64,000 bases of DNA from Fidelibacterota bacterium (lineage in GTDB: Bacteria > Fidelibacterota > UBA8477 > JABMPR01): positions 1 through 64,000 of the forward strand of contig JABMQQ010000174.1 of the NCBI GenBank assembly GCA_013202495.1, written 5' to 3'. The notes beneath the pieces were generated by a model. The model made no database searches. It saw nothing but the letters and a program-made list of their open reading frames with translations, and was not told where the DNA came from. How positions within the stretch are numbered: the first letter of the stretch is position 1; each line of letters starts with the position of its first letter. Below are positions 1-62,429 of the stretch, one piece after another. The translations under genes and the position numbers were made by a program.

Positions 1-41
1 GACCAATGAAACTGAATATGATCCTGCTTATGCAGCCTAAA

Positions 42-1007: not shown

Positions 1008-1068
1008 CGAATCTCCGATCTGCCTAACGCCTCTAGGCTCTCGCTGCTTCCCGAAACAGACTCGCACA

Positions 1069-2589
1069 TCATCGCAAATAAACCATCTTAACAACACTCG
1101 AGTACTCTCCGGCTTGGAGCCTCGCGAAGTACATACCTCCTGCTACTTGGTGTCCGTCCTGGTTTGTTCCGTCCCAGCTAACCCGGTAGACACCTGGTGC
1201 TTGTGACTGAATGACATGTGTCTTTACTTCTCGTCCAACGACATCGTAGATAATCAGTGAGACTTCTGACATTTCTGGTAGATCATACTCGATGGTTGTT
1301 GAGGGGTTGAAGGGGTTTGGGTATGCAGATCTTAGAAGGGGCTCTATAGGTTGTAATCTCTGATCTAAATTTACAGATACAGAATTGTCCCACAAACATA
1401 CATGCGAATATAGCTCACTATAAATGCCATTCTCAAACATGATAAGTTTGCCATCATGCATGACACATTGGAGAGATGAACAGCTAAGGTTAAGTCTGAA
1501 TGGCAACGCTTCTTCTTGTCCCAGAAGGTCACCTCGAGGGCTAATTCTCTGTACAATCACACTATCATCATTACAATAATAAATGACCCCTGCGCCTTCA
1601 GGTGGAAAATAGGTTGATGTATAGGGTGTGTCGGTTTGAATTTGATAAATTTGCTCCATTTCACCCATCTCCCCATAATTACTAATGCTGTGGAGCCAAC
1701 TTTCACTATCTAGAGTGTCAACGGTAGTGCGATAGGATAGTATAATGGTACCATCGTTTTGCAAGAATACATCTTCGGGGTCAATATCCACCCATAGATC
1801 TCCAGAAATAGTCCTAAAGGTTTGTGGCTCTTCCAAAGGAAGGCCATCTGTTCCGAGACGAAGAATTTTCAGCCTGCCAATTTCTGTAAAATTTGGAAGA
1901 ACAATGGACTCCTCTGCCCATAATATCAGACTAAGGCCTGCTACTGAATTATGTGTATCTAACCTTTTGGAACTCTGGATAAATATTGAGGTATCTTCCG
2001 GCTCGAGATGGTATATCTGAAAGCTTTCTCCAATCAATTCATCAGCATTGAAACGCTGTCCATATATTCCTGATTGGCCAAGATTATTTGTCCCAGACCC
2101 GTAATACATGAATTGGTCAACTGAAAGCTCAAGCGTGTTCCAGCTAAATGGACCAGTGGAACTATCTATCAGAATCAACTCATCTCCCTGAGGGAACTCA
2201 GGTCCATTTACTTGCTGGCTTCGATAGCTTGTGACCCAACTGCTATCCTGCCTACCTACATGGGTATAGAGTAAGCTAAGATTCTCTTCATTTCCTACGA
2301 TAAGTGGGCGATATCTGTTACCAGCAGTACTATTCGTAAAACTCCATAATTCACCTGACGGTCTTGCGAGGGAGTCCAAGAAAGTAAAATACATTTTTGT
2401 AGAATCGATATTAGGTTCAGATCCAGGGGGACCACTCATCCATAAACGCATATAGGTTAGACTTATTTCACCCTGATTATCAATATGGAGATTGTGATTA
2501 TAATAATTCTCAACCAAAAGTGCTTCATTTAGTAACTGAGAGTTTGCAACCAGTGGAAAAAGAATGAGAGAAATTAGTAATAGTCGCAT
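1069..2589 (-). CDS. Secreted protein with T9SS-type C-terminal sorting domain
   Basis: Signal peptide; SAYPNPFNPSTTIEYDLPEMSEVSLIIYDVVGREV...GGMYFARLQAGEYSSVVKMVYLR. Confidence 0.85.
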   Translation of the reverse strand: MRLLLISLILFPLVANSQLLNEALLVENYYNHNLHIDNQGEISLTYMRLWMSGPPGSEPNIDSTKMYFTFLDSLARPSGELWSFTNSTAGNRYRPLIVGNEENLSLLYTHVGRQDSSWVTSYRSQQVNGPEFPQGDELILIDSSTGPFSWNTLELSVDQFMYYGSGTNNLGQSGIYGQRFNADELIGESFQIYHLEPEDTSIFIQSSKRLDTHNSVAGLSLILWAEESIVLPNFTEIGRLKILRLGTDGLPLEEPQTFRTISGDLWVDIDPEDVFLQNDGTIILSYRTTVDTLDSESWLHSISNYGEMGEMEQIYQIQTDTPYTSTYFPPEGAGVIYYCNDDSVIVQRISPRGDLLGQEEALPFRLNLSCSSLQCVMHDGKLIMFENGIYSELYSHVCLWDNSVSVNLDQRLQPIEPLLRSAYPNPFNPSTTIEYDLPEMSEVSLIIYDVVGREVKTHVIQSQAPGVYRVSWDGTNQDGHQVAGGMYFARLQAGEYSSVVKMVYLR

Positions 2590-2720
2590 ATACCCCCCCT
2601 TATCTAAACAATTATTGCCCCCTAAGGACTTGTATCTATTATAGTCACTAGTTTTCTAATTCTGAGTGACAATTAAATAACACCCCACCCTCTCGCTGCT
2701 TCATGAAGCAGACTCGCAAA

Positions 2721-5700
2721 TCATCGCAGATAAACCATCTTAACAACACTCGAGTACTCACCAGCACTTAGTCTAGCGAAATAGACACCAGTGTTGACCT
2801 GCTGGCCTTCGTTGTTAGTTCCATTCCAAATAACAGCATAGGATCCTGGTGATTGCGACACGGAGGTCATATTCCAGACTTCGCGCCCAGATATGTCGTA
2901 GATGACTAGTGATACATCCGCGTGCTCAGGGAGTTCATACTGTACTGTAGTGGTGGGATTGAAGGGGTTCGGATAGTTTTGATGCAAGGTATAGTATTGA
3001 GGTAACAATTTGTTCTCTACTGATGTTAGGCATGGTCCGTTGTCTATAATTTGTTGTTGAGTTGGGTTAACCATATTACCTGCAATATCATAGTTACCAT
3101 CCAATCCATTTGAACTCAGCAACTCGTAAAGGCCGCATAATGTATTAAGCACGACATTGTCCCTGATAGAGAGATGCCCACCTACAGAATTGAGGCCACT
3201 CAAGCCATCTAGATTTGTGAGAACGAGATTGTCCCTAACAGAAAGTTGACCACCTACAGAAGTAAGACTGGTCAAGCCATTTAGATTTGTGATTGCGATA
3301 TTGTTCCTAATAGACAGATTACCACCCATAGATTCAAGATTGCTAAGACTATCCAAGTTTGTGATTGCGGCATTGCCATTTATAAACAAGTTACCACTCA
3401 CTGATGTAATATTGAACAAGCCATCCAGGTTCGCGAGTGCTTCATTACCGGTTACATACAAATAGCCCAAGGCACTAAGATTACTCAAGCCATTGAGGTT
3501 TGTGAGTGCGACATTGTCCTCTAATCTCAAACCATTGACAGAAGTAAGATTGCTCAGACCATCTAGATTTGTAAGTGTGACATTGTCCTGAACAAACATA
3601 TTGTTACCCACAGAAGAAAGACTGCTCAAGCCATTCAGGTTTGTAAGTAGGTCATTGTATCTTACTCTCAGATCACCACCTACAGAAGTAAGGGTTGAAA
3701 GTGGTTCTAAGCTAACAATGTCAGGACCTTGGATTGTTAGGTTACCTACAATGAAAGTGCCTGCAAATGAATTTACTTCTGCTTGAGTGCTTAGAAATAC
3801 GTCCGTTCCACATGGTCCCCCATCAATAATTTGCTGTTGAGTTATGTGAATCAAATTTCCAGACGCATCGAAGCTGCCAACCAATCCATCTGAACTCAGT
3901 AAAGGATATAGACCACAAAAATAATTAAGCGCGGTATTGTCGCTCACTTGCAGTCTATCACCCACATAGGTAATACTGCTCAGTCCGTCCAGATTTGTGA
4001 GTGATGCATTATCGCTCACTTCGAGCCTATCAGCCACAGAAGTAATACTGCTTAGTCCATCCAGATTTGCGAGTGTTGCATTATCACTCACATCCAGCCT
4101 ATCGAACACAGAAGTAATATTGCCCAGGCCATCAAGATTTGTCAGTGAGGGATTATCCCTCACTTCGATCCGATCACCTACAGAAGTAATGTTACTCAAG
4201 CCATCCAAATTTGTGAGTGATGTATTATGACGCACCACGAGTCTATCACCCACAGAAGTAATACTGTTCAAACCATTCAGATTTATGAGTGATGTATGAT
4301 GACCCACATACAGCGCATCACCCACAGAAGTAATACTGTTCAAGCCAGACAGGGTATTGAGTGCTGGATTACTCGATATAGACAGACCACCCACATAAGT
4401 AATATTACTTAAACCTTCTACGTTTGTGAGTGATCCATTCCCACTCACTAGCAGGTAACCGCCTACATAAGTAACGTTGCTCAGCCCATCTAGATTTGTA
4501 GGTAAATTATTGTCAGAAATAATTAGATCCTCCCCTACATAGCTCAGGTTGATAAGGCCATCCAGATTTGTGAGAGAAGAATTGTCTGATACATATAGAT
4601 TCCCACCCACAGAATCAAGGTTACTGAGTCCATCTAGAGTCCCAAGGTTGTCTACCTCTACAATTATTAGATGACCCCCAACAGATGACAGATTGATTAG
4701 TCCATCTAAATTTTCAAGAGACCTATGATTCCATATATTCAGTCTCTCACCGACAGAATTAAGGTTACTGAGTCCATCGAGATTTGCAAGGTCTATGCAG
4801 GTTGTAACAAATAGATCTCCTCCAACAGAGTATAAATTGCTCAACCCATCCAGGTTGGGAAGTGCGATATTGGCATCTATTATCAGATCACCACTCACAA
4901 AAGTGATATTATGTAAACTGTCTATGCTTGTGAGTATGTGATTTTCCGAAACATCTAGATCCCCACCTATAAAAGACAGGCTACTCAACCCATCCATATT
5001 TGTGAGGGATTGGTTGTCTTCTACGTGAAGCCCTCCTACAGAAGTCAGACTACTGAGACCATCCATTTGTGCTATCGAGCCATTGCCGTAAATGGACAAA
5101 CGACCACCTACAGATGAAAGAGATGCGAGACCATCTAAGTTTATGAGTGATGGATTGTTTTCTACACTGAGATCGTATTCCACAGATGTAATATTGCTCA
5201 AGCCACCAATATTATTAAGCACGTCATTAGAGAATATATTCAGCTCACCTAGAGAAGTAATATTACTCAGACCATCTAGGTTTGTGAGCGTAGAATTCCC
5301 AGATAGAACTATATCATATGCCACAGAATCTATATTGCTCAGACCATCTAGGCTAGTGAGGGCACTATTGTTCCTAATATAAAGGAAATCAATTGACATA
5401 AGGTTGCTCAAGCCGTCAAGATCTGTGAGTAAGTCATTGTCAGATATATTCAAAACATTCAAAGAATCAATGTTGCCTATACCGATCAGGTTTGTGAGTA
5501 AGTCATTGTCCATGACAGTTAGCTCATTTGCGAAACTTAGATTGCTCAAGCCACTTATGTCTGTGAGTAGGGAATTACTTGTAATTTGTAACCCCTGACC
5601 GATAGAATCTAGATTACTGAAGCAATCAAGATTTGTGATCTGGCTGTTACTAGAAATATCTAGAACCCAAGTTACAAATTCAAGATTGCTCAGACCATTC

Positions 5701-6389
5701 AGATCTGCTAGTACGGCATTGCCAGTAACACTTAAACTGCCACCCACAGAAGAAATACTTTCAAATCCATTTAGATTGGGGAGTGCATGATTATCCGATA
5801 TGGCCAAAGACCCACTCACAGACCTAACGTTTTCGAGAGCTGTCAGGTCTGTGAGTGCCTCATTGCCAAGTACAGTCAGATTCCCGCCAACAGATTCCAA
5901 ATTAATAAGACCATCCATATTTGTGAGTAGATCGTTGTATTCAACCTCGAGGTCACCACGAACAGATGCAATATCGTTCAAGCCATCTAGATCTGTGAGC
6001 GCTGGATTAAGTCTAATCTCTAGGTTACCGCGCACAGAGTCAAGATTACTCAAACCATCTAAGCTTACGAGTGCATCATTACGATATACATGTAGTCTAC
6101 CCCCGACGTAAGTAATATTGACCAAACCATCGACATTGGAGAGAATATCATTGTTTCGTACACTTAAATCCCCTCCCACTGAATCAAGAGTAAGAAGGGG
6201 GGATAAATCAACTATATCAGAGCCTCGAATACTTAGCCCGCCAGTTATAGAGTTTCCTGCAAATAGTTCTACATCCGCCTGCGAATACAGAGACACGTCT
6301 CCTTCAATAACTTGGGCACTACTAACTGAAAACAGACCAAACAGAATGATTTTTGCAAAAGCCTTTGTGACACTTTTAAATTGACTCAT
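2721..6389 (-). CDS. Giant secreted LRR/receptor-L-like repeat protein with T9SS-type CTD
   Basis: Dozens of ~23-24 aa repeats (LxNLDGLSNITSVGGxLxVxDN); CTD at the end. Confidence 0.9.
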   Translation of the reverse strand: MSQFKSVTKAFAKIILFGLFSVSSAQVIEGDVSLYSQADVELFAGNSITGGLSIRGSDIVDLSPLLTLDSVGGDLSVRNNDILSNVDGLVNITYVGGRLHVYRNDALVSLDGLSNLDSVRGNLEIRLNPALTDLDGLNDIASVRGDLEVEYNDLLTNMDGLINLESVGGNLTVLGNEALTDLTALENVRSVSGSLAISDNHALPNLNGFESISSVGGSLSVTGNAVLADLNGLSNLEFVTWVLDISSNSQITNLDCFSNLDSIGQGLQITSNSLLTDISGLSNLSFANELTVMDNDLLTNLIGIGNIDSLNVLNISDNDLLTDLDGLSNLMSIDFLYIRNNSALTSLDGLSNIDSVAYDIVLSGNSTLTNLDGLSNITSLGELNIFSNDVLNNIGGLSNITSVEYDLSVENNPSLINLDGLASLSSVGGRLSIYGNGSIAQMDGLSSLTSVGGLHVEDNQSLTNMDGLSSLSFIGGDLDVSENHILTSIDSLHNITFVSGDLIIDANIALPNLDGLSNLYSVGGDLFVTTCIDLANLDGLSNLNSVGERLNIWNHRSLENLDGLINLSSVGGHLIIVEVDNLGTLDGLSNLDSVGGNLYVSDNSSLTNLDGLINLSYVGEDLIISDNNLPTNLDGLSNVTYVGGYLLVSGNGSLTNVEGLSNITYVGGLSISSNPALNTLSGLNSITSVGDALYVGHHTSLINLNGLNSITSVGDRLVVRHNTSLTNLDGLSNITSVGDRIEVRDNPSLTNLDGLGNITSVFDRLDVSDNATLANLDGLSSITSVADRLEVSDNASLTNLDGLSSITYVGDRLQVSDNTALNYFCGLYPLLSSDGLVGSFDASGNLIHITQQQIIDGGPCGTDVFLSTQAEVNSFAGTFIVGNLTIQGPDIVSLEPLSTLTSVGGDLRVRYNDLLTNLNGLSSLSSVGNNMFVQDNVTLTNLDGLSNLTSVNGLRLEDNVALTNLNGLSNLSALGYLYVTGNEALANLDGLFNITSVSGNLFINGNAAITNLDSLSNLESMGGNLSIRNNIAITNLNGLTSLTSVGGQLSVRDNLVLTNLDGLSGLNSVGGHLSIRDNVVLNTLCGLYELLSSNGLDGNYDIAGNMVNPTQQQIIDNGPCLTSVENKLLPQYYTLHQNYPNPFNPTTTVQYELPEHADVSLVIYDISGREVWNMTSVSQSPGSYAVIWNGTNNEGQQVNTGVYFARLSAGEYSSVVKMVYLR

Positions 6390-6446: not shown

Positions 6447-9400
6447 CTACTTCAAATACAACATCTTAACAACGCTCGAATATTCCCCCGCCTCGAGCCT
6501 CGCGAAATACATACCGGCAGCAACGTTGTGCCCCTCTTCATTTAGTCCGTTCCAAATAGCCGTATATTTTCCTGGCGCTTGAGTCCCAGAAACGATTGTC
6601 TGCATTTCTCTTCCTGAAACATCATAGACAATCAATTCGACTTTGGAGTAATTGCTTAACTCATATGCGAGAGTCGTGCTTGGGTTAAATGGATTTGGAT
6701 AGTTTTGAGACAATACAGTACTGTAAGGTGTGTAGACTCCTTGGCCTATTGAAACAGGAGCGTATCCCTGGTTAGCAAGGACTATCAACTCGTCTGTCAG
6801 TGTAGAAATATAAACTAATGAGTCTTGACTTGATATGGCTCCAATACCCCCCAGAAAATTTGCCCCACCAGTAATCAGTGGATCACGCAGATCCGATACA
6901 TCTATTGCTATAACCCCGCTTTTCTCACCTGGAGTTACATTCGATGTTCCTAAGTATAGGTTGTTTCCATCAGCATAACCAATATCCGGTTGAAAGCCTA
7001 AATCCAGCTCTGAATAAAGTTTTGTGTGTGTACCATCTTCGGCCCATTCGTAAGTAGAAAGCCTGGTATTTTTCGAAAGAGTGAAGAAAGCAGCATTACT
7101 GATGGCTATCACTTCTCCATCCAAAACTGAATGATTTATCACTTCTGGAACTTCTAGGGATGTGAGGCTGACTGAGAAAATCTCGTTTTCTGTGGCAATG
7201 ATAGCCATGTTATCAAGCACCTTAACTTCAGGGGTACTAGAGGTAGGTACCTCCAAATCGCCCAAAAGCTCAATATTGTAGCGAGAGCTAACATCCAGAA
7301 ATTGGATATGCCCCTCTTCAGATCCAACAACTGCTATGTCATTCTTGACATCCAAGGCGAAGCCATCGGAGGAGACTCCAAGATCAGCACCTCCAAGCAT
7401 ATATATATATGTTTCGCCTAACCCGATCGCTCTAAATGTACCGTTTGCGCTCATGACATATGCGTAGTCCCCCTCCCGAGCAACTGCCACTGCATCATAA
7501 TCAAAATCAAATTCTCTTTCTGAGATATTACCAGGACGGGATATATCTAGGTTAATTATCCCTGCATCATCTGCTGCAATAAGGGCATGTGTACCTTCAA
7601 TTGCCATATCTCTTGCATGGAAAGGTCCTCCACGTTGATCCAGGAGATTATAATGACCTGGACCCATAACATTGAAATTCCCAAATTCGGATATGAAGAG
7701 ATAAGAACCTGAGCTGGCAACATCACTTAATCCTTCGACTTGGATCGTGCCCTCAGAGTAGGGATTTGCTAAATCCTCACAATTTACCACCTCAATTGCC
7801 TCAGTAGTTGTTAAATAGCTTCTATATCCTGTAACATGAACGTTTCCGAACATGGGTTCACCGAAGTACTCCCAAGAGGTCAATTCCTGTACTTGTTGAA
7901 GGTTTTGGATATCAATAATTTTAAATCCATCAATCGAGGCCAGATATATTTCTTCATTGTAAAACTGAATATCTGTGATCTCGAACGCAGTTATGGAATT
8001 ACTGAGTAGGATGGGATCACCAGGGTCCGAGACATCGTATATGTATAGAATGCCATCACCACCGCATGCCAACAACGTATCCTGAATCTCCACAGCAAAA
8101 CTCATTTCCCACTCATTTATTAATGAGCCATGTTCAAAAGGAGCAGCTGGATCACTGATGTCAATCACTCTGCACCCCATACCTCCAGAGGCTAGATAGG
8201 CGTAGTCTCCTCGCACAGCTACGTCCATGGCTTCACCCTCTCCCATATAATTTCCTACAACTTGGGGGTCTTCCTCATCACTAATATCCAAGATGAATAG
8301 GCCGTCTAGTTCAGCTGCAACGAAAGCATTATCTCCATCTATAAAAACATCAATCATGTGCATGCCCAGGTGAGTATTTGAAACCACCTCAGGGTATTCA
8401 GGCTCACTAATATTTACTATAGTCATTCCCATTCCATCAGCGAGATATACTCTATCCCCTTCCAGTGTCATTGCCAAACCCTCTCCTGGTGTGGAACAGT
8501 AACCGACCGTGCTTAGGTTCACCCCCAGAGATAACTCTATCAGGCTTGTACCTTGTATGGGACTACTTGCTAGAAGGACATTGGTTCTTGTTATGGCGAT
8601 GTCTTGTATTTGCTCTAGGTTTGGTATGGATATTGGGGATGCAGTAGCGAGAGAATCCTGAAGGTTGTATATATCGAGATGACCGTCTTCAACAGATAGG
8701 TATAAATTATCACCCTCTATAAACATGGCTGAAACTGGTGTATGGGTGTAGATGGTTTCAACGACATGGATTGAATCCGGGGAGCTAATATCAACAATAT
8801 CAATTGTCATATTATCTCTCGCTAAAAACAGACTTTCCTCCCAGTAGGCAAGGTCAACGACCGCACTTCTATTGAAGTCCATGTGAATGTGCTCATGAAG
8901 ATCCGAATCGAGGTCAAAGTAATAGACACCACCATTACACTTAGCAACGAGTACGGATTCTCCGAGAACTACCTTCTCCAGTTGTCCATCTGGAGTTCCA
9001 ACGAAACCTGCGACCACAGGGTTATGATAATCTGTAATATCCAGGACATATACCCTTCCATCTTCTGCACCGGCAATCAGGATGTCATCGCGGGAATCTA
9101 AGCTTACGATCGCTCCACCTGGATTCAGAGTTGATACTCGTCCTATCGTCGATGTGTTGTTTATAGCTATGGTGGAAATCCCAGCATCTCCCTCAGCAGT
9201 ATAGAGAGCTCTGCGCCCACATGTTAGATCAAGGATTGCTCCTCTACATGTTACATTCGTTGTAAGCGTGATATTATTAGGATTGTGGGTCTGATATACC
9301 CCCAGAATATTACCTTCGCTGATAAATGCGTAAACATCATAACTCTCCACACATCGCTGTGAGGAGTATCCCCAATCACCTAGAAATTGAAGGTTCGAAT

Positions 9401-9509
9401 CCGGAAAATCATAGGTATCGCTTGAGTTGTGGCTTGTTTGAGCAGTCGCCTGATTGCTTGAAATCAGTACTACACAAATGAGCAAAGATCTGATTAACTT
9501 CTTATTCAC
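6447..9509 (-). CDS. Secreted LVIVD-repeat beta-propeller protein with T9SS-type CTD
   Basis: Repeated VxDISDPxxPxxVG and DxAYLA motifs; CTD NYPNPFNPSTTLAYELS...VVKMLYLK; GTG start likely. Confidence 0.85.
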   Translation of the reverse strand: MNKKLIRSLLICVVLISSNQATAQTSHNSSDTYDFPDSNLQFLGDWGYSSQRCVESYDVYAFISEGNILGVYQTHNPNNITLTTNVTCRGAILDLTCGRRALYTAEGDAGISTIAINNTSTIGRVSTLNPGGAIVSLDSRDDILIAGAEDGRVYVLDITDYHNPVVAGFVGTPDGQLEKVVLGESVLVAKCNGGVYYFDLDSDLHEHIHMDFNRSAVVDLAYWEESLFLARDNMTIDIVDISSPDSIHVVETIYTHTPVSAMFIEGDNLYLSVEDGHLDIYNLQDSLATASPISIPNLEQIQDIAITRTNVLLASSPIQGTSLIELSLGVNLSTVGYCSTPGEGLAMTLEGDRVYLADGMGMTIVNISEPEYPEVVSNTHLGMHMIDVFIDGDNAFVAAELDGLFILDISDEEDPQVVGNYMGEGEAMDVAVRGDYAYLASGGMGCRVIDISDPAAPFEHGSLINEWEMSFAVEIQDTLLACGGDGILYIYDVSDPGDPILLSNSITAFEITDIQFYNEEIYLASIDGFKIIDIQNLQQVQELTSWEYFGEPMFGNVHVTGYRSYLTTTEAIEVVNCEDLANPYSEGTIQVEGLSDVASSGSYLFISEFGNFNVMGPGHYNLLDQRGGPFHARDMAIEGTHALIAADDAGIINLDISRPGNISEREFDFDYDAVAVAREGDYAYVMSANGTFRAIGLGETYIYMLGGADLGVSSDGFALDVKNDIAVVGSEEGHIQFLDVSSRYNIELLGDLEVPTSSTPEVKVLDNMAIIATENEIFSVSLTSLEVPEVINHSVLDGEVIAISNAAFFTLSKNTRLSTYEWAEDGTHTKLYSELDLGFQPDIGYADGNNLYLGTSNVTPGEKSGVIAIDVSDLRDPLITGGANFLGGIGAISSQDSLVYISTLTDELIVLANQGYAPVSIGQGVYTPYSTVLSQNYPNPFNPSTTLAYELSNYSKVELIVYDVSGREMQTIVSGTQAPGKYTAIWNGLNEEGHNVAAGMYFARLEAGEYSSVVKMLYLK

Positions 9510-9585: not shown

Positions 9586-12255
9586 TCATTTCAAGTAAAC
9601 CATCTTCAAAACACTCGCATACTCTTTAGTCTGAAGGCGTGCGAAGTACATACCGCCGCTTACTTTAACACCAGTATCGTCAGTTCCGTTCCACCGTGTT
9701 TCATAGTATCCGCCTGGTTGAGTTTCGTTCACTAGAGTCTGTATAATCCGCCCCCTGACGTCGTAGATGATGAGTGTGACCTTTGCAAGCTGCGGTAACT
9801 CGTAATTTATTGTAGTGCTCGGGTTGAAGGGATTCGGATAGGCGTTGTACAATCGAAACTTGGAGATTATGTCGTTTGAATGGTTAGACAATGTTAAAAT
9901 AAAAGATAGATGGTTTGATTGAATTGAGTTCAAAGTATCTGACCCAACAACGGCATGAACCTGCCATTGATATGCTCCTCCTGCCTCGAAAAATTCTTCA
10001 CCGAGAAAGACATGAAAAGTATCAACGAGATCTGTAACTGCTGTGTCTCTTGTAGGACCAATTATATGCAGCGAATAGTTCACCAATTCTACGGAATTTA
10101 TTGAGGCATTTTCCCACTTAAACGTAACAAATGCCGTGTCCAGTAGAGCACTATCCGGTGGGCTAGTCAAATTGAAGTTCTGTAGAGGACTTATTGGCGG
10201 AATCGCATACTCAAATGATCCCATATCTGGGTTTGACCCCACATATTCAGTTGAATCAAGATCAAAGAGTGTTTGTAATCCATATTGGAAAAATGAGGTT
10301 CCGGCATTAATAGCAGGTGAATCATCGTTGAGTGAGTAATTCATTGGAGGATCCCAAAATGATGGGGGAGTGTCAATGTTGCCTTCACTTATGTTAATGG
10401 TACCATTGTTGTTGGTGACAACATTTGTAGAGTCCATAAGTATATTTGTATACGCTATGGTTACATGGCTATCTGATGAGCTGAGGTCGGTAGTGATTTC
10501 AACCTGACTAGGTTCGTTGCCCCAAACAATGGAATTAACCACGACAGGGCGAGCGGTCATATAAGTGTAGATTCCTCCACCCAATTCAGCTGCTGTATTG
10601 TCTGCAATCACACAATGAATCAATTTAGGGGTTGATAGGCGGATGCTAAAACCACCCCCTCGATTACCTGAATTTCCAATGATAAGACAGCGCCAAAAGT
10701 TGATATTGGATTGATCTTTTAGGTGAAAGCCACCTCCAAAAGTAGCGGCCTGATTGTCTCGTATGACAGTATTTATCATTTTCGCGTTAGAGTGTTCTCT
10801 TGCGTACACACCACCCCCAACATCAGCTGATACGTTGTTGGCTATGATAGTGTTTCTTATTATTGGAGAAGCTTCCTCCAGATACAATCCCGCTCCTCCT
10901 CCTGTACCACAAGTGTTTGATATGATCCTAAGTTCATCAAATATAGGATCCGCAAACCGGCAATCGATACCTCCACCCCGAGCGGTGAAACCATTCTGCA
11001 AGGTGAGCCCACATATGATTGTCGATGTATCTATAACTGTACCGTATATCCGAATTACTGAGCCGAGCATTCCACCATCCAAAATTGTGGAACTTATGTA
11101 TGATGTGTCACCAGTAAGGAAATATCGTGAAGCAACAATTAGATTTTTATCCTGAATGTCCAAATTCTCGGTATACAGGCCAGGATCAACGATGATTGTA
11201 TCGTTGGACCATGCGAAATCTATAGTATGCGACAAGCTCGCGAAGGGGTTGATTTCCGATCCAGACCCCGTGGTGTCGGAACCATGGGTGGCGACATAAA
11301 AGGTTGTGCTCAAGCGGGGACCCGGTGAACCAAGAGCATGTTCAAAAGCTCCCATATCAGGTTCACTATCGACAGGTTGTGGTCTATGGTTACCCTGGAT
11401 GTCAAAGGGGGCAGCATTTAATTGATTCCCTCCGCCAATACATGGGGAATACGAGGCCAGGCTAAAATTACTTGCAGAAGGGTATATAAATGAAGGATTG
11501 GAACTAATATTACCCGCACCCGGGAAAATGCCTCCCTGGATATTAGAATAGGTCACGCTCAGCCCGGCGTTGTTTGAAAATAATGGTGTCCAGTTGTCCC
11601 AAATGATACAATTTGTGATAATTGCATTTTGTCCACGAACTACTGAACCACCTGAAGTGCTTGCTGCAGAATTACCGTAGAAGACTGTATTTGAAATATC
11701 AACAGTTGCCCCATCACCCACAAAAACACCACCGCCTTGGACGGACCAATTCTCCTGGACAATACAATTCTTCATTACCAGATTAGCACCGGATCCAGTC
11801 AAGTACACTGCACCTCCATCTTGTTGCGAGTCATTGTTTTTTAATATGCAGTTTGTAATTGTGAGCTGGCCACATCCCTCCCTCATTTTCACACCACCTC
11901 CGTATCCGTCTAAAACATTGTGACCATCCTGTATCGTGAGACCAAATAGGTTTATGATTCCGCAATTAACGGTCACAACTGCAGCACTATTGTTTACTCC
12001 AGCGATAATGGTTTCAAGGTAATGATTTCCTGGATCAAGAAGGTCTTGTGATGCAATGGTTAGGGTCTGGTTTAACTCAGTGCTCACAAATTCGCCATAA
12101 GTTCCAGGTGCTAAAATGATCGTGTCACCGGGGGTAGCCATATTAACAGCTAGCTGAATTGTACTGCGCTCAGAAGGTACATGAATAATATCAGCTTTAG
12201 CTATGCCCATCATCACGATAGACGCTAGAATTGAGGAAATCAGTTTTTTAATCAT
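9586..12255 (-). CDS. Secreted right-handed beta-helix (Pmp/DUF1565-like) protein with T9SS-type CTD
   Basis: STIQLAVNMATPGDTIILAPGTYGE and GGGVxxxxxSNxxxxNTVIxDNxAxxxGGG repeats; CTD. Confidence 0.85.
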   Translation of the reverse strand: MIKKLISSILASIVMMGIAKADIIHVPSERSTIQLAVNMATPGDTIILAPGTYGEFVSTELNQTLTIASQDLLDPGNHYLETIIAGVNNSAAVVTVNCGIINLFGLTIQDGHNVLDGYGGGVKMREGCGQLTITNCILKNNDSQQDGGAVYLTGSGANLVMKNCIVQENWSVQGGGVFVGDGATVDISNTVFYGNSAASTSGGSVVRGQNAIITNCIIWDNWTPLFSNNAGLSVTYSNIQGGIFPGAGNISSNPSFIYPSASNFSLASYSPCIGGGNQLNAAPFDIQGNHRPQPVDSEPDMGAFEHALGSPGPRLSTTFYVATHGSDTTGSGSEINPFASLSHTIDFAWSNDTIIVDPGLYTENLDIQDKNLIVASRYFLTGDTSYISSTILDGGMLGSVIRIYGTVIDTSTIICGLTLQNGFTARGGGIDCRFADPIFDELRIISNTCGTGGGAGLYLEEASPIIRNTIIANNVSADVGGGVYAREHSNAKMINTVIRDNQAATFGGGFHLKDQSNINFWRCLIIGNSGNRGGGFSIRLSTPKLIHCVIADNTAAELGGGIYTYMTARPVVVNSIVWGNEPSQVEITTDLSSSDSHVTIAYTNILMDSTNVVTNNNGTINISEGNIDTPPSFWDPPMNYSLNDDSPAINAGTSFFQYGLQTLFDLDSTEYVGSNPDMGSFEYAIPPISPLQNFNLTSPPDSALLDTAFVTFKWENASINSVELVNYSLHIIGPTRDTAVTDLVDTFHVFLGEEFFEAGGAYQWQVHAVVGSDTLNSIQSNHLSFILTLSNHSNDIISKFRLYNAYPNPFNPSTTINYELPQLAKVTLIIYDVRGRIIQTLVNETQPGGYYETRWNGTDDTGVKVSGGMYFARLQTKEYASVLKMVYLK

Positions 12256-12577
12256 TAGGTCATCCTATTAAAGTCTATGAGAATTTTACAACAATTTCCA
12301 CGATAACTGAAAATTTACTCTTCCCTTTAAGAACCGATTTTTCTAAACAAGTCGATTCACCGATTTTCTACCACATTTGAATGCATCATAATTAAGTCGA
12401 TCCAGTTATATATTTCGGTGCTTTACAGACCAGTATAACATGTACTTTGCATTGTACTCCCCGCGCAGTGTGTTAGTTCTTACTCAAATATAGCACTGAT
12501 AGAAATTTCTACCCAATTGCAGTTTCCATCAACCAAGCCGCTGTGTGTGAGTCTGATTAAATACCTTACTGGCAGTA

Positions 12578-13927
12578 TCATTTTAAAAGGACAATTTTTC
12601 TAGAAAACAAATTGTAGGCATCAGTAAACTGAACCACATACACGCCAGAACTCATTTCTAATCCATGTGAATTGGTACCATCCCAGTGATGATTATATGT
12701 GCCTACATTTTTATTCACTATAGTCTCTATCACCAAATTTCCGTTAATGTCAAATATTGAGATGTTAATCTCAGTCCTGGTACTCACGCTATATTTGGCA
12801 TTGACGTTGGAATTAAACGGATTAGGGTAAGCATTGATAATCCCAAAATTTGCCGGGCGGATGGCTTCATGATCAACTGCCCCTCCCCGTATATGGAGTG
12901 AGTCCTTTGCCCACCAGATTTCACGCCCACCTTCCACCTCATGCTCCCAAAAAACCGCTACTGTATCGTATGAAAGAATTGAACATTCCGGATTAAAATC
13001 ATTTCCGGGAAGATTTGAAATATTAGCGATCAATTCTATACCTGAGAGGCCATAGGCATATATTTCACTATTTCCTTCTATTGAATCACATTCATAAAAT
13101 ACTAGCCAATCTTCTACAACTCTTGCCACAGGTACGGGCACGGTGAGAAGGGCTGGCTTTGTGGCATTTTGGATTTGAATCGAGGTCCAGTCATCTAGTA
13201 CCACACTCCATGTGGTATCCTCGAATGATTGATACGCCAGACCACCCATAGTACCAAACCTGGGGTATTTATTTATCATTCCGCTCGAATATCTATTAAT
13301 GCTGTAAGGTGGATTACTGATGCTCCTTGATGCAACAAAGATAGATGTAGTGTCTTGTATCTGCTTTTCATAAGCGACTACCCAGAATGAGCCATATGCC
13401 TCAGGATTCAGATCGGGGTTTGATATATTCCCGACATCTACAACTGCTGATTCTTGATTATTTAGATTCAGATAAACTAAATTTGTGTCCTGAACATAGA
13501 CGAGGATAGAATTTCCTAATGAGGGTTGAGTAGAGTTTTGATTGGCATTTGTAATACTTTCTGTGCTACCATCTGCTTCAGAATAATACTTCAATATCCA
13601 GTTGCCATTTTCTCTTGCTTGCCACACGAGATCTCCATGAACATTTATATCTGGATTCAGCAGCGAATCGTTTGAGGAAGCAATTAATTCAGGACTCTCC
13701 AGAATTGGCCATACGATCATTCGATAAATAGAAAATCCAGTTGAATCATTTCGATTCTCCCAACACATATAGAATTGAGATCCGTTATCGAAATAATCCT
13801 CGCTTATCTCATAATTTATGTTCACTCCAGGAATCGAAACAAGCGAATGTGGCACAAAGTTCATTTGGGTATACCCTTGAGTTGCTAATACACCTAAGAG
13901 TAACCAATTTGAATATGTGTTTTTCAT
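12578..13927 (-). CDS. Secreted propeller-like protein with CTD; paralogue of 41530..42918
   Basis: INAYPNPFNSNVNAKYSVSTRTEINISIFDINGNLV...; shared VFWEH...E(I/L)WWAKD motif with 41530..42918. Confidence 0.75.
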   Translation of the reverse strand: MKNTYSNWLLLGVLATQGYTQMNFVPHSLVSIPGVNINYEISEDYFDNGSQFYMCWENRNDSTGFSIYRMIVWPILESPELIASSNDSLLNPDINVHGDLVWQARENGNWILKYYSEADGSTESITNANQNSTQPSLGNSILVYVQDTNLVYLNLNNQESAVVDVGNISNPDLNPEAYGSFWVVAYEKQIQDTTSIFVASRSISNPPYSINRYSSGMINKYPRFGTMGGLAYQSFEDTTWSVVLDDWTSIQIQNATKPALLTVPVPVARVVEDWLVFYECDSIEGNSEIYAYGLSGIELIANISNLPGNDFNPECSILSYDTVAVFWEHEVEGGREIWWAKDSLHIRGGAVDHEAIRPANFGIINAYPNPFNSNVNAKYSVSTRTEINISIFDINGNLVIETIVNKNVGTYNHHWDGTNSHGLEMSSGVYVVQFTDAYNLFSRKIVLLK

Positions 13928-14002
13928 ATGCCCCCCTTTAAAGATTGTCTAACCTCTTAGGCTGATCAATTGAAATGCGCATCAGAAGTGTTGTACAATT
14001 AG

Positions 14003-14047: not shown

Positions 14048-17000
14048 TTACTTCAAAAACAGCATCTTGATCACATCACTATTGTCCCCGGCTTCCAATC
14101 TCGCAAAGTAGATACCCGTGTTTATACTCAGACCATCAGCGGTTTTCCCATCCCAATTCACTTTGTAATAACCCGCATTTTGAGGTCCAGATTTTAAAGT
14201 TCTTACTCTTTTGCCTCTAATGTCATAAATGATGAGCGAGATGTTTGAGTCCTCAGGCAAATCATAATTAATTGTCGTGTTTGGGTTAAAAGGATTGGGA
14301 TAATTTTGACTCAGAATAAATCTTGTCGGAATTGCTGAATCATGAGTCGATACAGCTCCAGCTACATCTACATGTGCGGAAATGTTCTCAATGACGTGAT
14401 TTGAGTTAAATTTCATATATTCGAGTGTCACATCAGTTCGGGTACCGATTTCATTATTTTCACTGAGTGTGAAATTTACCGATAATAGCTGACCAGATTC
14501 CCCTTCCGGATTTGCTCCAACCCCAATAAAGCGGATACGTCCCGCCTCCTCATCGATATGGAATGACTTCATAAATCCATTAAGGTGTGAGGGCCACTGG
14601 AATGGATCTCCGGTATCAATGATCATTTTTGAAGGATCATATTGTAACTCACCTTCAAATGAGAAAATATTGCTTCCATTAGACAAGTTGAAAGGAATTG
14701 TCAGTGAAGCGTTTGGTATTGCTTCTTGATCAATAGTTTCTATTACCCCTGAAGCTAAAAACCCATCGCTTGGATAAACTGGCAAAGAACTCTCTAATTG
14801 AACTAAATATCGCAAAACAAATGAGGCATCCATACCGTCCACTATACCGTCAGCGTACACATCAGCGTTGGCGAGCTCCTGGCATTCCAGATAACTATCA
14901 TCTAAAGCATGGATTAGGATGTCTGAAGCATCAAGTGCCTCTATCGTATCGTTTCCGTCAACATCGCCCCAAATGGGAGGATTTACGATAGTTACAAAAC
15001 CGCCAGAACTGAATACATCTTCATTCGAGTTAAATTTTGCATATTCAACATTTATTGGTATTTCTGTGCAGAGCTCTGCGTCAGTTGAAAATTCCAAATA
15101 GCAAAACACCCCAGCTCCTGTAATTTCCTCAACCCCAGCAAAGGCTGTGTAAATCACGCCTTCAGACTCGTTGAATTGATTTGACCATCCCAGAGCTTCA
15201 GACATGGTCCCAGTTGTTTCAACACCAATAAAAGTTAGACCAGGTGAATATCCAGAAAAGTTTAACTCTGCAGAGCGGTAGTTTACACTATCATACACTA
15301 CAACATTTACTGGGACGAGGACACTCTCCCCTACGACACCATGAGCTGATCCAACATTCACTTCTGTCAAGATTTCGGCATCAGCCCAGCCAAGAGCTGC
15401 AAATCGACTCGATACTTCCTCAGCACTGAGTAACCCTTCATAAACCTGTAGATCATCTATTGAACCGTCGAAGTAATTCAGTGTGGGTGTGGGTAGACCA
15501 CCAACTCTGATTGTTGAGGCGAGGCTGTTACCTAAGTTTTCTGTCACAACCTGATCAATGAAAACTAACTCTCCATTCACATATATTTTCTGCTCATCAT
15601 TATTCGCATCCCATACCGCAACAATATCAGCCCACTCACCTTGTACAAGGACTGGACCTGTGACTATTTCATATCGTGATGCTATAGGATCTTGTGTGTC
15701 ATCTCTCCAGGTTAAACGTAATGAACCATCATTATCCGCAGAGAGGAACATGCGTACAGCTGTGCTTTGAGAGGTGGATTCATAATAAATCGCACTATGA
15801 TTTGGTGTAGGATTCCATTTAAGTGTCACTGCGATACTTACTTCAGACGCCTCCGCTAAACTTGCACTCGTTGGCACTTCAATGACATCTTCAACACTTG
15901 AAAGTGATACAGCCTGATTTTGGTTCCCAAAATAGTCCATAGCCGTAAAATCAACATTACCAACCGCTGCGCCATCGTTCCCATTTCCACTCGCATCATT
16001 TGCATTACCATTAAAAGGATATGAAGCAATCAGGCCGTCAACTAATGAATCTTCGTTTTGGAGAAAAAGATCCCCATGACCAATCTTCCATGTTGTTGAA
16101 GAATTATTTCCCGTAAACCAGATCTTGTACTGGTCAGGTGCTACTTCAACCGTCGTGGGTCCCGCGACGATGATATCATTCCAAGATTCTTGAGGACCCG
16201 GCAGTATGTAAGGGTTACCAGGATCTTTTTGCCAGTCGATACCGTTGTCAGATGTAGCAAATCCCACCCTTTGATGCATATCACCACCACGCCCAGTATA
16301 AGTCATTAGATATCCACCATCCTGTTTTTTAATAACGGATGGGAGAGTCACTCCCTGGGCTTCCCAAGCAAGCTCGGGATCCTTTTGCATGACTGGGTTG
16401 TTCTCATAATCATCCCAAATTACACCATCTGTAGAGTACGAAAGACCAATCCCAACAGTCCCTGCATCATCTATTCCGATTGAATACATCATATAAATAT
16501 CGTCTTGTTTAACGACATTTGGAGAGGATACGTATGCTGAATTCCAAGTCCCCTGTCCACCTGGGACAATGATGGGGTTATCCGGGTATTTGGACCAAGA
16601 GATGCCATCTTCGCTGGTTGCCAATCCTATTCGATGTACTCCGTCTCCCCCAAGCCCTGTGTACCACATCTTGTATCCTGAATCATCCTTGAGAACAGTA
16701 AATTTTATCATGTCCGAGTCAAATTCCCCACTGTTTCCCACACCCATCACAGGAGCATTCATGGAATTCCACTCAACACCATCCACTGACGTTGCATATC
16801 CAATTTCTCGTGGGTTGCCTGGCCGACGTCCAATGTACCACATTTTATATCCTGAAGAATCGCTATGGACATTAGGACTCACAACCGCTAGACCATCCCA
16901 TGATGATGATCCACCTCCCCTAAATACTGGATTCTGTGGATTATCCTCATACTCGCCCAATGCAAATAGAAAGGAGGTAAAGGATAGCAGTAGCACCAAC

Positions 17001-17074
17001 TTATGCAAATTTTTGGTTCGCTGATACAAGTTTACAAAGTAGTATGTTTGAAATAGATTCTTCATTTCCATCAC
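14048..17074 (-). CDS. Secreted multidomain protein: GH43-like propeller, LamG, cohesin-like, dockerin-like, cohesin-like, T9SS-type CTD
   Basis: SGYKMWYIGRRP / GYKMWYTGLGG propeller; LamG segment; GDVDGNDTIEALDASDILIHAL...ADVYADGIVDGMDASFVLRYLV dockerin-like pair between two cohesin-like segments. Confidence 0.75.
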   Translation of the reverse strand: MMEMKNLFQTYYFVNLYQRTKNLHKLVLLLSFTSFLFALGEYEDNPQNPVFRGGGSSSWDGLAVVSPNVHSDSSGYKMWYIGRRPGNPREIGYATSVDGVEWNSMNAPVMGVGNSGEFDSDMIKFTVLKDDSGYKMWYTGLGGDGVHRIGLATSEDGISWSKYPDNPIIVPGGQGTWNSAYVSSPNVVKQDDIYMMYSIGIDDAGTVGIGLSYSTDGVIWDDYENNPVMQKDPELAWEAQGVTLPSVIKKQDGGYLMTYTGRGGDMHQRVGFATSDNGIDWQKDPGNPYILPGPQESWNDIIVAGPTTVEVAPDQYKIWFTGNNSSTTWKIGHGDLFLQNEDSLVDGLIASYPFNGNANDASGNGNDGAAVGNVDFTAMDYFGNQNQAVSLSSVEDVIEVPTSASLAEASEVSIAVTLKWNPTPNHSAIYYESTSQSTAVRMFLSADNDGSLRLTWRDDTQDPIASRYEIVTGPVLVQGEWADIVAVWDANNDEQKIYVNGELVFIDQVVTENLGNSLASTIRVGGLPTPTLNYFDGSIDDLQVYEGLLSAEEVSSRFAALGWADAEILTEVNVGSAHGVVGESVLVPVNVVVYDSVNYRSAELNFSGYSPGLTFIGVETTGTMSEALGWSNQFNESEGVIYTAFAGVEEITGAGVFCYLEFSTDAELCTEIPINVEYAKFNSNEDVFSSGGFVTIVNPPIWGDVDGNDTIEALDASDILIHALDDSYLECQELANADVYADGIVDGMDASFVLRYLVQLESSLPVYPSDGFLASGVIETIDQEAIPNASLTIPFNLSNGSNIFSFEGELQYDPSKMIIDTGDPFQWPSHLNGFMKSFHIDEEAGRIRFIGVGANPEGESGQLLSVNFTLSENNEIGTRTDVTLEYMKFNSNHVIENISAHVDVAGAVSTHDSAIPTRFILSQNYPNPFNPNTTINYDLPEDSNISLIIYDIRGKRVRTLKSGPQNAGYYKVNWDGKTADGLSINTGIYFARLEAGDNSDVIKMLFLK

Positions 17075-17088
17075 CCCAATTGTTGTTT

Positions 17089-18606
17089 TCAGTCCCCTGA
17101 TTTCAGGTTCGTGATAAATCGTGTTTTATCAATAATTACGGAATAACTCAGATCAAGATTTTCGCCCAATTTGGTTTTTGAATAGCCATACTGTTGGTAT
17201 AAATATTCCAATGTCTTCTTCTCAATTAATTCAAGCATGAAATCCCATTTTTTTCCAGAATGCTCACCAATAAACTGTTGTAGTTGGGACGAGATAACCT
17301 CTGAATTGGCATCAAAATCAAATGCTCTAATATTTGGGATTTTTAGACCCCTCTTGGCCATTCTTTTGGCCATGGAATAATAGGTAGGCCGGGCTAGCTC
17401 CAACCTCTTGAATGATGGCTCACCTATACCCGTGTGAAGGAAGTGATATAATATTACATTATATCGCACTATATCCTTTATGGTCTCCCAATCTTTCTTC
17501 AGGGCAAACTCGAATGTTCTTCTCCCATTTCCATCCTGGCCAGGCTTCGGCTGTAAGCTTGAAATGTATTTTGAATTCGCTACGTATGTTTTAAGCCATA
17601 TGGGATTAATAGGGAATCCCTCTTCAACATATTGGTTAACCGAGTTTACTGCTTGTGTATGGTATTGAATTATCTCATCTGAGTCAGATCCGATATACTC
17701 ATGAATCTCGGCGAGAAACTGAGCATACTGCGGTTCAAAACATATAATCGAGTATTTTTGAGCTGTTTCAAAACCTTCACTGAAATACTGAAGTGCACGT
17801 TCATATTCACCTGTTTCAAAGAATAGATGTCCTAGATTTCCAGAAATGAGAGCAGAGAAATAGGGAGTCTCCATCTGATACTTGTGCTCTTGAAAGTAGT
17901 CGATTGAGGCTTGTGCATTTTCTGTATAATACAGGGTCAGTCCAATAGAATTTTGAACAGCCCATTTGATGAACTTATACTCTTTTTCTTCTGCTAAGGT
18001 GATAGCCTGATCAAAATAGTCTAGAGCATCATCCATCCTCTTTTTTGTGTAGGAGACCAGACCAATATTGAAAGCTGATAAACCCTGCTGGACGAAAAGA
18101 TCCTTTTCGCTAAAAGCCTTGAAGTGTCCGATTAAATTGGGAGTAACATCTAACTTGTCCCTTTTCACAATCAGAAGATCGATCAAATAGTTGAGCAGAA
18201 GCTTTAGTTTCTGAGACCTTGCATGTTGCAAGCCTTCGTAACAATAGTTGAGTGCAGTATCCTGGGCACTGAATAATGTGTGAAATTGAGCATACTCATA
18301 GCACACATATGCAAGAGGTTGAATGCTGAAGTTAGATTTGTCGAGAGTGACGGTCTTGGCCAATGAATATGCTTCAGCCAACAATGCATGAGCAGACCGA
18401 CAATCTCCAAGCAAGTGCAGGACCTTCGCCTGGCCTGCCAGAATAATTGATTTTAGTCCCGGTTCGAAGTTTTGATTTTTCTCAAACTCTTCGAAGAGTC
18501 GCTTCATACGTCCTGGGTGGATAATCTCCATCTGTTCAAGAAATTCAAAATACTCCACGTGGTGGATATGTTTTAGGGGGGCATATATAATTGGTGTTCG
18601 AACCAT
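17089..18606 (-). CDS. TPR protein with C-terminal Fis-type HTH-like segment (putative regulator)
   Basis: TPR repeats; C-terminus YLYQQYGYSKTKLGENLDLSYSVIIDKTRF; homologous along its length to 25867..27420. Confidence 0.65.
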   Translation of the reverse strand: MVRTPIIYAPLKHIHHVEYFEFLEQMEIIHPGRMKRLFEEFEKNQNFEPGLKSIILAGQAKVLHLLGDCRSAHALLAEAYSLAKTVTLDKSNFSIQPLAYVCYEYAQFHTLFSAQDTALNYCYEGLQHARSQKLKLLLNYLIDLLIVKRDKLDVTPNLIGHFKAFSEKDLFVQQGLSAFNIGLVSYTKKRMDDALDYFDQAITLAEEKEYKFIKWAVQNSIGLTLYYTENAQASIDYFQEHKYQMETPYFSALISGNLGHLFFETGEYERALQYFSEGFETAQKYSIICFEPQYAQFLAEIHEYIGSDSDEIIQYHTQAVNSVNQYVEEGFPINPIWLKTYVANSKYISSLQPKPGQDGNGRRTFEFALKKDWETIKDIVRYNVILYHFLHTGIGEPSFKRLELARPTYYSMAKRMAKRGLKIPNIRAFDFDANSEVISSQLQQFIGEHSGKKWDFMLELIEKKTLEYLYQQYGYSKTKLGENLDLSYSVIIDKTRFITNLKSGD

Positions 18607-18743: not shown

Positions 18744-18881
18744 AATTGTAGGAGCGAGGCTTATGAGAACAAAAACCTGGGGTAATGTTCCGATCTTCTC
18801 ATGAGCCTTAGAGAATATTCCAGAATCATTGCATGCATCATGTGCTTCCTCGTGTGCGTCCACCATGAGCCTTTGTTAGGC
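18744..18881 (-). repeat. Putative degenerate attC site downstream of 18899..19570
   Basis: Minus strand starts GCCTAACAAAGGCTCATG and later has CATAAGCC; the GTTRRRY end is not evident. Confidence 0.4.
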
Positions 18882-18898
18882 ATTGCTTTTCTGTAATA

Positions 18899-19570
18899 TC
18901 AAAGAATTAGCCCCCACTCCATAATGTAAAACCCCTCTCTGGAAAAGACTTCAGAATCAGGTGTGCGAGGTGCTTGTTCATCACCATCATATTCCCTAAC
19001 TACATACCATATCCGGTTGATAATATCTGGCTCTATATCACAATCAATTGTGACCATTTGCTCGAGTATTTCAGAATATTGAGGGTAGATAATGTATTGG
19101 TTGTGCTCTTTTAATAGTGGCAACCAATGATCCAAAAAGTCCTGGATTTCTACTTCGTTGAATTTGAGTGTTTGAAGCTCATTCTCAAAAAAAGATGCTA
19201 GCTCAGGCTTTTCTACAATCCAGCCCTCGTCATATTGGCAGAAATCCGGAGTTTTACACTCATAGAATAAAAAGGTAAATTTGTTGTCTATTAAACCTTC
19301 TTCAGTGACGTGAGTTGACCAACCACCATTGTACAAGGGCTCTGAGACAATTACACGCCCGCCATTAGGAAAAGTTAATCGCACATTTAAATCAATCTCA
19401 CTCTCAGGGTAAATGTAAATATTTGGTTTATACGCTATAATTGAGTCACCTGGATTAATTGATGTGTCAATCGGAACTGCGTCAATATCCGACTCAGACT
19501 CTTCAGGAGAGGAGCATCCTATTGACATAAACAGAATAACCGTAATCATTAGAAATATCTTTAACTTCAT
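18899..19570 (-). CDS. Predicted lipoprotein, integron-cassette cargo
   Basis: Start taken at MKLKIFLMITVILFMSIGCSSPEE; the upstream part of the tracked ORF lies in the attC-like site. Confidence 0.75.
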   Translation of the reverse strand: MKLKIFLMITVILFMSIGCSSPEESESDIDAVPIDTSINPGDSIIAYKPNIYIYPESEIDLNVRLTFPNGGRVIVSEPLYNGGWSTHVTEEGLIDNKFTFLFYECKTPDFCQYDEGWIVEKPELASFFENELQTLKFNEVEIQDFLDHWLPLLKEHNQYIIYPQYSEILEQMVTIDCDIEPDIINRIWYVVREYDGDEQAPRTPDSEVFSREGFYIMEWGLIL

Positions 19571-19596
19571 TAATCTCCCATCGATTATTGGCGTTT

Positions 19597-19723
19597 GTCT
19601 AACGCCGTAGGTTTGAGCTGCTTTATGAGAAACGGTCAAAACAGCCAGGTTACCTTGTGTACTTAATTTCAATTTATGTGTCCCCCCTTCGTTCTGTGAA
19701 TCAGCTCAATGCCTTTGTTAGCT
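19597..19723 (-). repeat. attC-like recombination site
   Basis: Minus strand AGCTAAC-AAAGGCA-TTGAGCTG ... CAGCTCAA-ACCTACGGC-GTTAGAC; outer core sites and perfect 8-bp inner L pair. Confidence 0.75.
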
Positions 19724-19846
19724 TGAATCAGCCTGTTAATATTCTTCAATGGCTAGAGGTTCAATAACGATGACTTTTTGTGAGACAGTACCCATATTTT
19801 GCTCATACTCAATTTTGTTTCTCACCTCATCAGCAGATGCGGTCCC

Positions 19847-20707
19847 TCACCAATTTTGAGTAAAATCGAGTGTATCAGACTCTGCGTCGTCTATGAATGG
19901 TTGAACCTGAATAGCAATATCATAGTTCGTAATATTATTGTTCCTAAACGTGGGTGATCCTGAAAAAATATAAATGGCATTTTCAAAATTGGAGATTGTA
20001 TTATTTTGAAAAAATGATGAGTCATCATGACTGTTGTAGATGCCTCTGTACATCTTCTCATCTGAACCGATCATGTTATTTTGAACTAGTAATCCACTTG
20101 AAAGAGAAAAGAACTGGCTTAGGATTGTATTGTCAATTATTAATCCCGTTGAATACATATAATTTATATTGTTAAAAATACTTGTCTGAAGTAGAGTAGA
20201 ATCACAATCTTCAAGTGCAATGTGCCGAATTTCGCAATTAATGATTGATGGTGAATAGTCGGATATCTCAACATAACCTAAGCCGGTAACCCACTCCAGT
20301 TCAACTCGCTGATCTGATTCACTATCCCCTTCAAAGGTCATCGAGGGTTTTTCCCCTTCAACCTCGTTGAAATGTATTGGTGAATTCTCTTCCCCTACTG
20401 CAATGAACTCACCTTTAATTGTGATAATTGGGGGGCGGGTCATATCACCAGCAGGATTGGGGACTAAAACAGTGCCAGCTGTATGCTCAATCTTTGTCCC
20501 AGGTAAAATGATTAAAGTTGAGTTTCCCTCGAAGATTAGGTCTCTAGAAATCTCAATAACATCCTCACCACTACCGCCCCAGGTAATAGTTTGGTTTTCG
20601 AATATTATCGGTGAGGTATAGGGTGGTTCATCATGACTTTCGAATAAACCACACGAAAACATAGAAAGAATTATTAGTTGTCCAGCAAAGATTCTTTTGA
20701 GAGTCAT
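19847..20707 (-). CDS. Predicted lipoprotein, beta-helix-like, integron-cassette cargo
   Basis: MTLKRIFAGQLIILSMFSCGLFES lipobox; SPSIINCEIRHIALEDCDS..NNTISNF beta-helix pattern; GGAGG RBS. Confidence 0.75.
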   Translation of the reverse strand: MTLKRIFAGQLIILSMFSCGLFESHDEPPYTSPIIFENQTITWGGSGEDVIEISRDLIFEGNSTLIILPGTKIEHTAGTVLVPNPAGDMTRPPIITIKGEFIAVGEENSPIHFNEVEGEKPSMTFEGDSESDQRVELEWVTGLGYVEISDYSPSIINCEIRHIALEDCDSTLLQTSIFNNINYMYSTGLIIDNTILSQFFSLSSGLLVQNNMIGSDEKMYRGIYNSHDDSSFFQNNTISNFENAIYIFSGSPTFRNNNITNYDIAIQVQPFIDDAESDTLDFTQNW

Positions 20708-20723
20708 GTTTCCTCCGTTTTCA

Positions 20724-20739
20724 AGCTAACGCGTCAACT
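20724..20739 (-). repeat. attC right-end core (GCGTTAGCT) upstream of 19847..20707
   Basis: Minus strand AAGTTGACGCGTTAGCTTGAA; TTAGCT complements the AGCTAA at the cassette's other end. Confidence 0.5.
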
Positions 20740-61973: not shown

Positions 61974-62429
61974 ATGGAATCAAAACTGAGTGACATTCCT
62001 GATAACATCATCAGGGAGGAGTTTGTAAATAGGTTTCAACTAAAGAGCGGAGACTTGATTAAGAACGCTACTTCAGCAGCGAATCACTTAAGAGCCTTCC
62101 TCTCTGATCAGCCAAGAGACGTGGAACACTTTGTAGTGATATTTATGAATAATCAGAATAAGGTGATCACTACGGAGATTGTGGCTTCAGGTACGATTAA
62201 TAGTTCTGCAGTATACCCGAGACAGATTGCAATTAAGGCATTGGAAAAGGAAGCCACTAATATCATCCTGGCTCATAATCATCCAAGTGGTGAGACCATG
62301 CCAAGCAGTTCTGACAGAGCAGTTACAAGTAAATTAAAAACGGCTTTAGGCTCGCTTGATATCGAAATCCTGGACCACATCATTATAGGTGAAGATCATT
62401 ATAGCTTTGCAGATGCAGGTGTCTTATGA
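61974..62429 (+). CDS. RadC-like JAB/MPN protein
   Basis: AHNHPSGETMPSSSDRAVTSKLKTALGSLDIEILDHIIIGEDHYSF. Confidence 0.9.
   Translation: MESKLSDIPDNIIREEFVNRFQLKSGDLIKNATSAANHLRAFLSDQPRDVEHFVVIFMNNQNKVITTEIVASGTINSSAVYPRQIAIKALEKEATNIILAHNHPSGETMPSSSDRAVTSKLKTALGSLDIEILDHIIIGEDHYSFADAGVL

Follow-up and report, generated by a model that had tools for sequence, protein, structure and literature searches.

Integron integrases (IntI) bind folded bottom strands of attC sites and move circular gene cassettes. In Vibrio and Xanthomonas, sedentary chromosomal integrons have an IntI of their own and numerous cassettes whose attC sites form one homogeneous family; their cassette open reading frames (ORFs) follow the attC direction and mostly encode proteins of unknown function. 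All of this is also seen in the system described here. An atypical order of intI and cassettes has been described for the Treponema integron (PMC3607928). Clusters of attC sites without an integron integrase are called CALINs in IntegronFinder, version 2 of which takes two attC sites as its default (PMC9024848); the present block is like a CALIN in having attC sites and cassettes with no intI among them.

We analyzed a stretch of 64,000 bp (the window), bases 1-64000 of contig C167 (67,452 bp), from a draft Candidatus Neomarinimicrobiota genome (3.95 Mb, 255 contigs, 86% complete). A preliminary description had read part of it as a CALIN-like cassette array without integrase. This holds locally, but the genome encodes an intact IntI on another contig, C30, and the window very probably carries a block of a sedentary chromosomal integron served by that integrase.

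Genomes and attC models

The comparison set comprised 18 genomes of the same genus, one other of the family, three of the same order, and 17 others of the phylum. Rfam gave no match in the window at gathering thresholds, and we therefore built our own attC models. Model R1 was seeded with seven sites, namely the window site and similar sites from other contigs of the genome. Model R2 was made from R1 matches on 29 loci with the window site left out (51 rows, 31 distinct sequences) and is slightly circular, since its sites were gathered by R1, one of whose seven seeds was the window site. The threshold for IntI was the TIGR02249 cut-off of 265 bits.

A complete attC site and complementary cassette ends

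The site at 19597-19723 is a genuine attC (Table 1). Read on the minus strand (19723-19597) it runs AGCTAAC AAAGGCA TTGAGCTG ... CAGCTCAA ACCTACGGC GTTAGAC, with all four of the boxes previously proposed for it. R2, from which it had been excluded, gives it 58.1 bits (E = 5.4e-13, 181 kb searched), far above the background score that would have spoken against the preliminary description; R1, with the site among its seeds, gives 93.9 bits, and nhmmer gives an E value of 5e-12. Its box geometry is unique within the window and did not arise in any of 30 dinucleotide-preserving shuffles. Across the attC sites, the R and L boxes pair, with 86% of cells matched in register and at most 51% when slid; the sites also have the unpaired extra base and variable center of an integron attC. 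Covariation among the seven seed sites was not above that of shuffles because these sites are too alike, and thermodynamic single-strand folding energy was not below that of shuffles and did not separate attC sites. A strict RYYYAAC/GTTRRRY pattern was discarded; it missed the true site, whose R'' box is AGCTAAC, and its sole match was a chance palindrome inside a gene.

The shared left end RCYAACAAAGG does occur three times, at 65-75, 18871-18881, and 19713-19723, though the positions first given for it spanned just part of each occurrence. Searched bare with up to two mismatches, the motif gave 11 matches against 9.7 expected, which is not above chance, so that it carries weight because of the full attC structure around it. 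Another type of attC left end, CTAACAAAG(G/C)TACTGTAG(T/A)TAAAG, was seen at L021:780, L024:2924, window position 75, L017:41, and L026:52, always on the minus strand; neither R1 nor R2 recognized its right half.

Three ORFs with cassette-type ends lie in the window (cassettes A, B, and C). The ends of cassette A, GTTAGCTTGAA (20730-20720) and TTCAAGCTAAC, are complementary over 11 nt, as the preliminary description had found; complementarity extends over 9 nt in cassette C and 7 of 9 positions in cassette B. Upstream of cassette A, an R'-like end at 20730 had no model match at E < 1, and the remainder of that attC is unrecognizable. The attC of cassette B is incomplete, with no covariance model match at E < 1 and an nhmmer match at 18880-18838 (E = 0.16). 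The left end of the cassette C site, CTAACAAAGGTACTGTAGTTAAAG, also occurs in the attC of a cassette on the intI contig C30.

We compared the ends of 37 cassettes of the genus that lie between consecutive attC sites, in this genome and in relatives. Each begins with nine bases that read as the reverse complement of the nine bases closing at its own R'' box. Matches at positions 1 to 9 were 1, 1, 1, 0.89, 0.84, 0.86, 0.81, 0.78, and 0.86; shuffled partners gave 0.30 to 0.43 at positions 5 to 9, and position 10 was at chance (0.24). This nine-base rule is the trace to be expected of circular intermediates recombined at G↓TT, and together with the complementary ends it supports the earlier proposal that the cassettes were once circular. 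We had considered the complementarity special to these cassettes but dropped the idea: the class 1 aadA7 cassette, used as a control, also has complementary ends (12 nt), and the property is therefore a general one of cassettes and nothing new. Of 68 ORFs between attC sites, 67 run in the attC direction.

All three cassette proteins have a signal sequence and, judged by eye, a plausible lipobox cysteine (SIGC, MFSC, LTSC), in agreement with the preliminary description. Its view of the cargo as lipoproteins is supported, but the block also seems to carry proteins tagged for the type 9 secretion system (T9SS). The cassette B protein had no relative among viral contigs and one distant match among plasmids.

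Table 1. Features of the integron block, listed from its proximal end to the left contig end.
Feature	Position	Strand	Description
Cassette A start	20720..20730	-	G↓TTAGCTTGAA; 11 nt complementary to left end of own attC
Cassette A ORF	19847..20707	-	286-aa lipoprotein-like protein, without Pfam family
Complete attC of cassette A	19597..19723	-	R'' AGCTAAC, L'' TTGAGCTG, L' CAGCTCAA, R' GTTAGAC
Cassette B ORF	18899..19570	-	223-aa lipoprotein-like protein; Pfam, none above cut-off
Eroded attC of cassette B	18744..18881	-	R'' GCCTAAC and L'' GGCTCATG kept; L' CATAAGCC recognizable; R' lost
TPR protein	17089..18606	-	505 aa
1008-aa protein	14048..17074	-	Laminin_G_3, cohesin, and dockerin domains plus T9SS C-terminal domain
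Possible attC right-end remnant	13947..13964	-	CAGCCTAAGAGGTTAGAC; just upstream of next ORF; by eye, unscored by models
T9SS-tagged protein	12578..13927	-	449 aa
Possible eroded attC	12463..12574	-	Directly 3' of stop; R2 17.8 bits, E 0.11; nhmmer 12561-12523, E 0.1
T9SS-tagged beta-helix protein	9586..12255	-	889 aa
T9SS-tagged LVIVD/beta-propeller protein	6447..9509	-	1020 aa
T9SS-tagged receptor-L-domain protein	2721..6389	-	1222 aa; last 252 nt plus half-attC form the shared module
Eroded attC 3' half	2675..2718	-	Directly 3' of stop of 2721..6389; nhmmer 2718-2678, E 0.016
T9SS-tagged protein	1069..2589	-	506 aa; last 252 nt plus half-attC form the shared module
attC 3' half	1022..1068	-	L', R' GTTAGGC; fused to stop of 1069..2589; 5' half missing; nhmmer 1065-1024, E 8e-6
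Cassette C ORF	42..1007	-	321-aa lipoprotein-like protein, bacterial Ig domain (Big_7)
attC 5' half of cassette C	1..75	-	Cut by contig end; 9 nt complementary to cassette C start

Extent of the block

All main genes between about 20.73 kb and the left contig end lie on the minus strand. Two are lipoprotein cassettes, one encodes a TPR protein, six encode proteins with a T9SS C-terminal domain, and one encodes an Ig-domain lipoprotein. Partial attC sites follow the stops of four more genes than had been noted before, all on the same strand, which suggests that a cassette-derived array with eroded sites, longer than first reported, occupies this whole interval. These half-sites, with gene direction, are what suggests that the T9SS genes at 1.07 to 17.07 kb are cassettes. 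Of the partial sites, those at 12.5 and 18.8 kb (E = 0.1 to 0.2) are suggestive only, and the genes at 6.4 to 12.3 kb have no recognizable attC site after them. As a control, the reversed window gave nothing below an nhmmer E value of 3. A further half-site at 38912-38867 (nhmmer E = 0.06) was weak and was judged to be chance.

The proximal end of the block at 20.7 to 21.7 kb borders ordinary two-component genes and has neither intI nor attI. Neither the TPR gene nor the flanking histidine kinase gene has orthologues in the 18 same-genus genomes, and no orthologous locus, empty or occupied, was found in relatives. Distant members of the family of this TPR protein stand beside intI or attC in relatives G007, G009, and G013 and on contig C158 of the same genome. 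In addition to the TPR protein at 17089-18606, the window has a second of about 500 aa at 25867-27420.

Eight genes on six contigs share an arrangement in which the stop of a T9SS gene runs straight into an attC 3' half. The shared module of about 300 bp consists of a T9SS C-terminal tag and the half-site, and its passengers are mostly unrelated. Alignments among seven of these genes mostly begin some 252 nt ahead of the stop, which many of them cross into the half-site. The fused form occurs only in the window's genome; in same-genus relatives, tag and attC are separate matches. The tag and 3' half-attC might travel together as a module, with fused genes losing their excisable end and becoming fixed and passengers being swapped by homologous recombination at the tag. 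We regard this as rather unlikely; if true, the integron would provide proteins for surface display and afterwards fix them in the chromosome. A conserved protein domain would also give a sharp alignment start, and the swap is something that we infer. Synonymous-base sharing was rejected as a mark of the half-site genes because it is not specific (0.58 among their T9SS tags, 0.51 among other cassette-type tags; codon-usage expectation, 0.36). The 3.95-Mb genome has 149 matches to T9SS C-terminal domains, about 20 of them on attC-bearing contigs.

Integrase and genome-wide distribution

No integron-type integrase is encoded in the window, as the preliminary description stated, or elsewhere on C167; the recombinase at 62426-63025 is XerC/D-like. 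The intact IntI on C30 (1032-2039, minus strand; 335 aa), an integron-type tyrosine recombinase with the extra domain of that family, scores 446.7 bits with TIGR02249 and aligns over 309 residues with the Vibrio IntI4 structure (2a3v). It shares 97% identity with the integrase of a Candidatus Neomarinimicrobiota genome from the Black Sea, which places the host in the Marinimicrobia (SAR406, Fidelibacterota). A candidate attI (...CCAGACCGGATAAACGTAG↓TTAGAAAG) follows IntI on the same strand, and after it comes a cassette with 9-nt complementary ends. An attI-like sequence ending in GTTAG was seen by eye just downstream of intI in this genome and in G012, G013, and G018. In relatives, too, intI faces the cassettes on one strand, most clearly on contig C51 of G007, where six attC sites lie downstream of intI.

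The genome has 44 attC matches at E <= 1e-4 on about 25 contigs. Of the 18 genomes of the genus, 16 had R2 matches, as did the family's one further genome and two of the three that share the order; the 17 genomes searched elsewhere in the phylum, outside the order, had none.

Several further observations concern integrases and cargo. G015, of the same genus, has three integron integrases in one genome; the one on its contig C140 (14000-24000; 404 bits) is, unlike the others, arranged divergently in the usual way and has six attC sites. On C158 of the window's genome (locus L223, 18000-25352), an integrase-like frame fragment with an internal TAG (23695-23820) lies between a TPR gene and an attC and is possibly a decayed second intI. 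An array in G001 (C14:9000-21472) has small ORFs that by eye resemble PIN, Doc, and antitoxin genes, unlike the surface-protein cargo of the window's genome. At 61974-63025 of the window, a RadC-family gene is directly followed by the 199-aa XerC/D-like tyrosine recombinase, with a further recombinase at C167:66576; this region is possibly a separate integrated element.

Discussion

In our proposed explanation, the C30 IntI would recombine folded single-stranded attC bottom strands at G↓TT, so that circular cassettes with lipoproteins and T9SS-secreted proteins would be excised and inserted. Half-sites would be unable to fold, and genes ending in them would be fixed. Most attC sites of the block are eroded to halves, and the array is therefore probably frozen for the most part; only the cassette A site could still fold, perhaps together with sites past the left end of the contig. 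Its cargo, if expressed, would diversify the cell surface.

The tie between the block and C30 is one of site similarity only, the draft assembly being broken at attC sites, and an orphan CALIN in the strict sense, degraded and of separate origin, which no integrase now in the cell could use, would agree with the lack of intI in window and block and with the half or eroded state of most of its sites. However, C30 has an intact IntI next to a cassette whose attC shares its left end with the site at the left end of the window, for which reason we assign the block to an integron system. The complete window site, moreover, has R and L boxes that still pair and agrees with the family of sites in its own genome; an orphan array is therefore improbable. 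Chance or unrelated palindromes between lipoprotein genes, such as terminators or REP-like repeats, would be in keeping with a short box motif at chance level and a folding energy no lower than that of shuffles, but they are extremely hard to reconcile with the model scores, the nine-base end rule, the same-strand gene order, and the genome's IntI.

If the block does belong to the C30 integron system, it could be one piece, cut off by the assembly, of a single large contiguous integron starting at C30, and not a separate dispersed block. Many attC contigs are short and end inside an attC, as when repeats break an assembly, an artifact described for draft genomes (PMC9024848). Against contiguity, the proximal end of the block borders ordinary two-component genes, contig C204 has attC blocks that are 13 kb apart and face opposite ways, and attC sites lie in the interior of C88 and C239; the arrangement on these three contigs indicates that several separate blocks exist, and a single contiguous integron appears somewhat unlikely. 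Since attC repeats break assemblies, concluding that there is no integrase from a single contig of a draft genome is unsafe.

No integron paper on this phylum was found among open-licence literature, and an integron in Marinimicrobia is apparently undescribed in the literature searched. Our results add a well-supported chromosomal integron to a marine phylum, with an attC family confined in our sampling to one order, and the link of cassettes to lipoproteins and T9SS-secreted proteins offers a possible route to rapid surface change in uncultured ocean bacteria.

Compared with a CALIN, the block has one complete attC and partial ones, and intI lies on another contig of the genome. The order of intI toward cassettes resembles the atypical order of Treponema (PMC3607928), whereas host phylum and T9SS-tagged cargo differ from the Treponema denticola type. 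In contrast to the integrons of Vibrio and Xanthomonas, the host belongs to another phylum, the 44 site matches are spread over many contigs and do not form one proven contiguous array, half-sites are fused to gene ends, and the integrase reads toward the array. By mechanism, the system is an ordinary chromosomal integron, of a kind already known but in a host that has been little studied.
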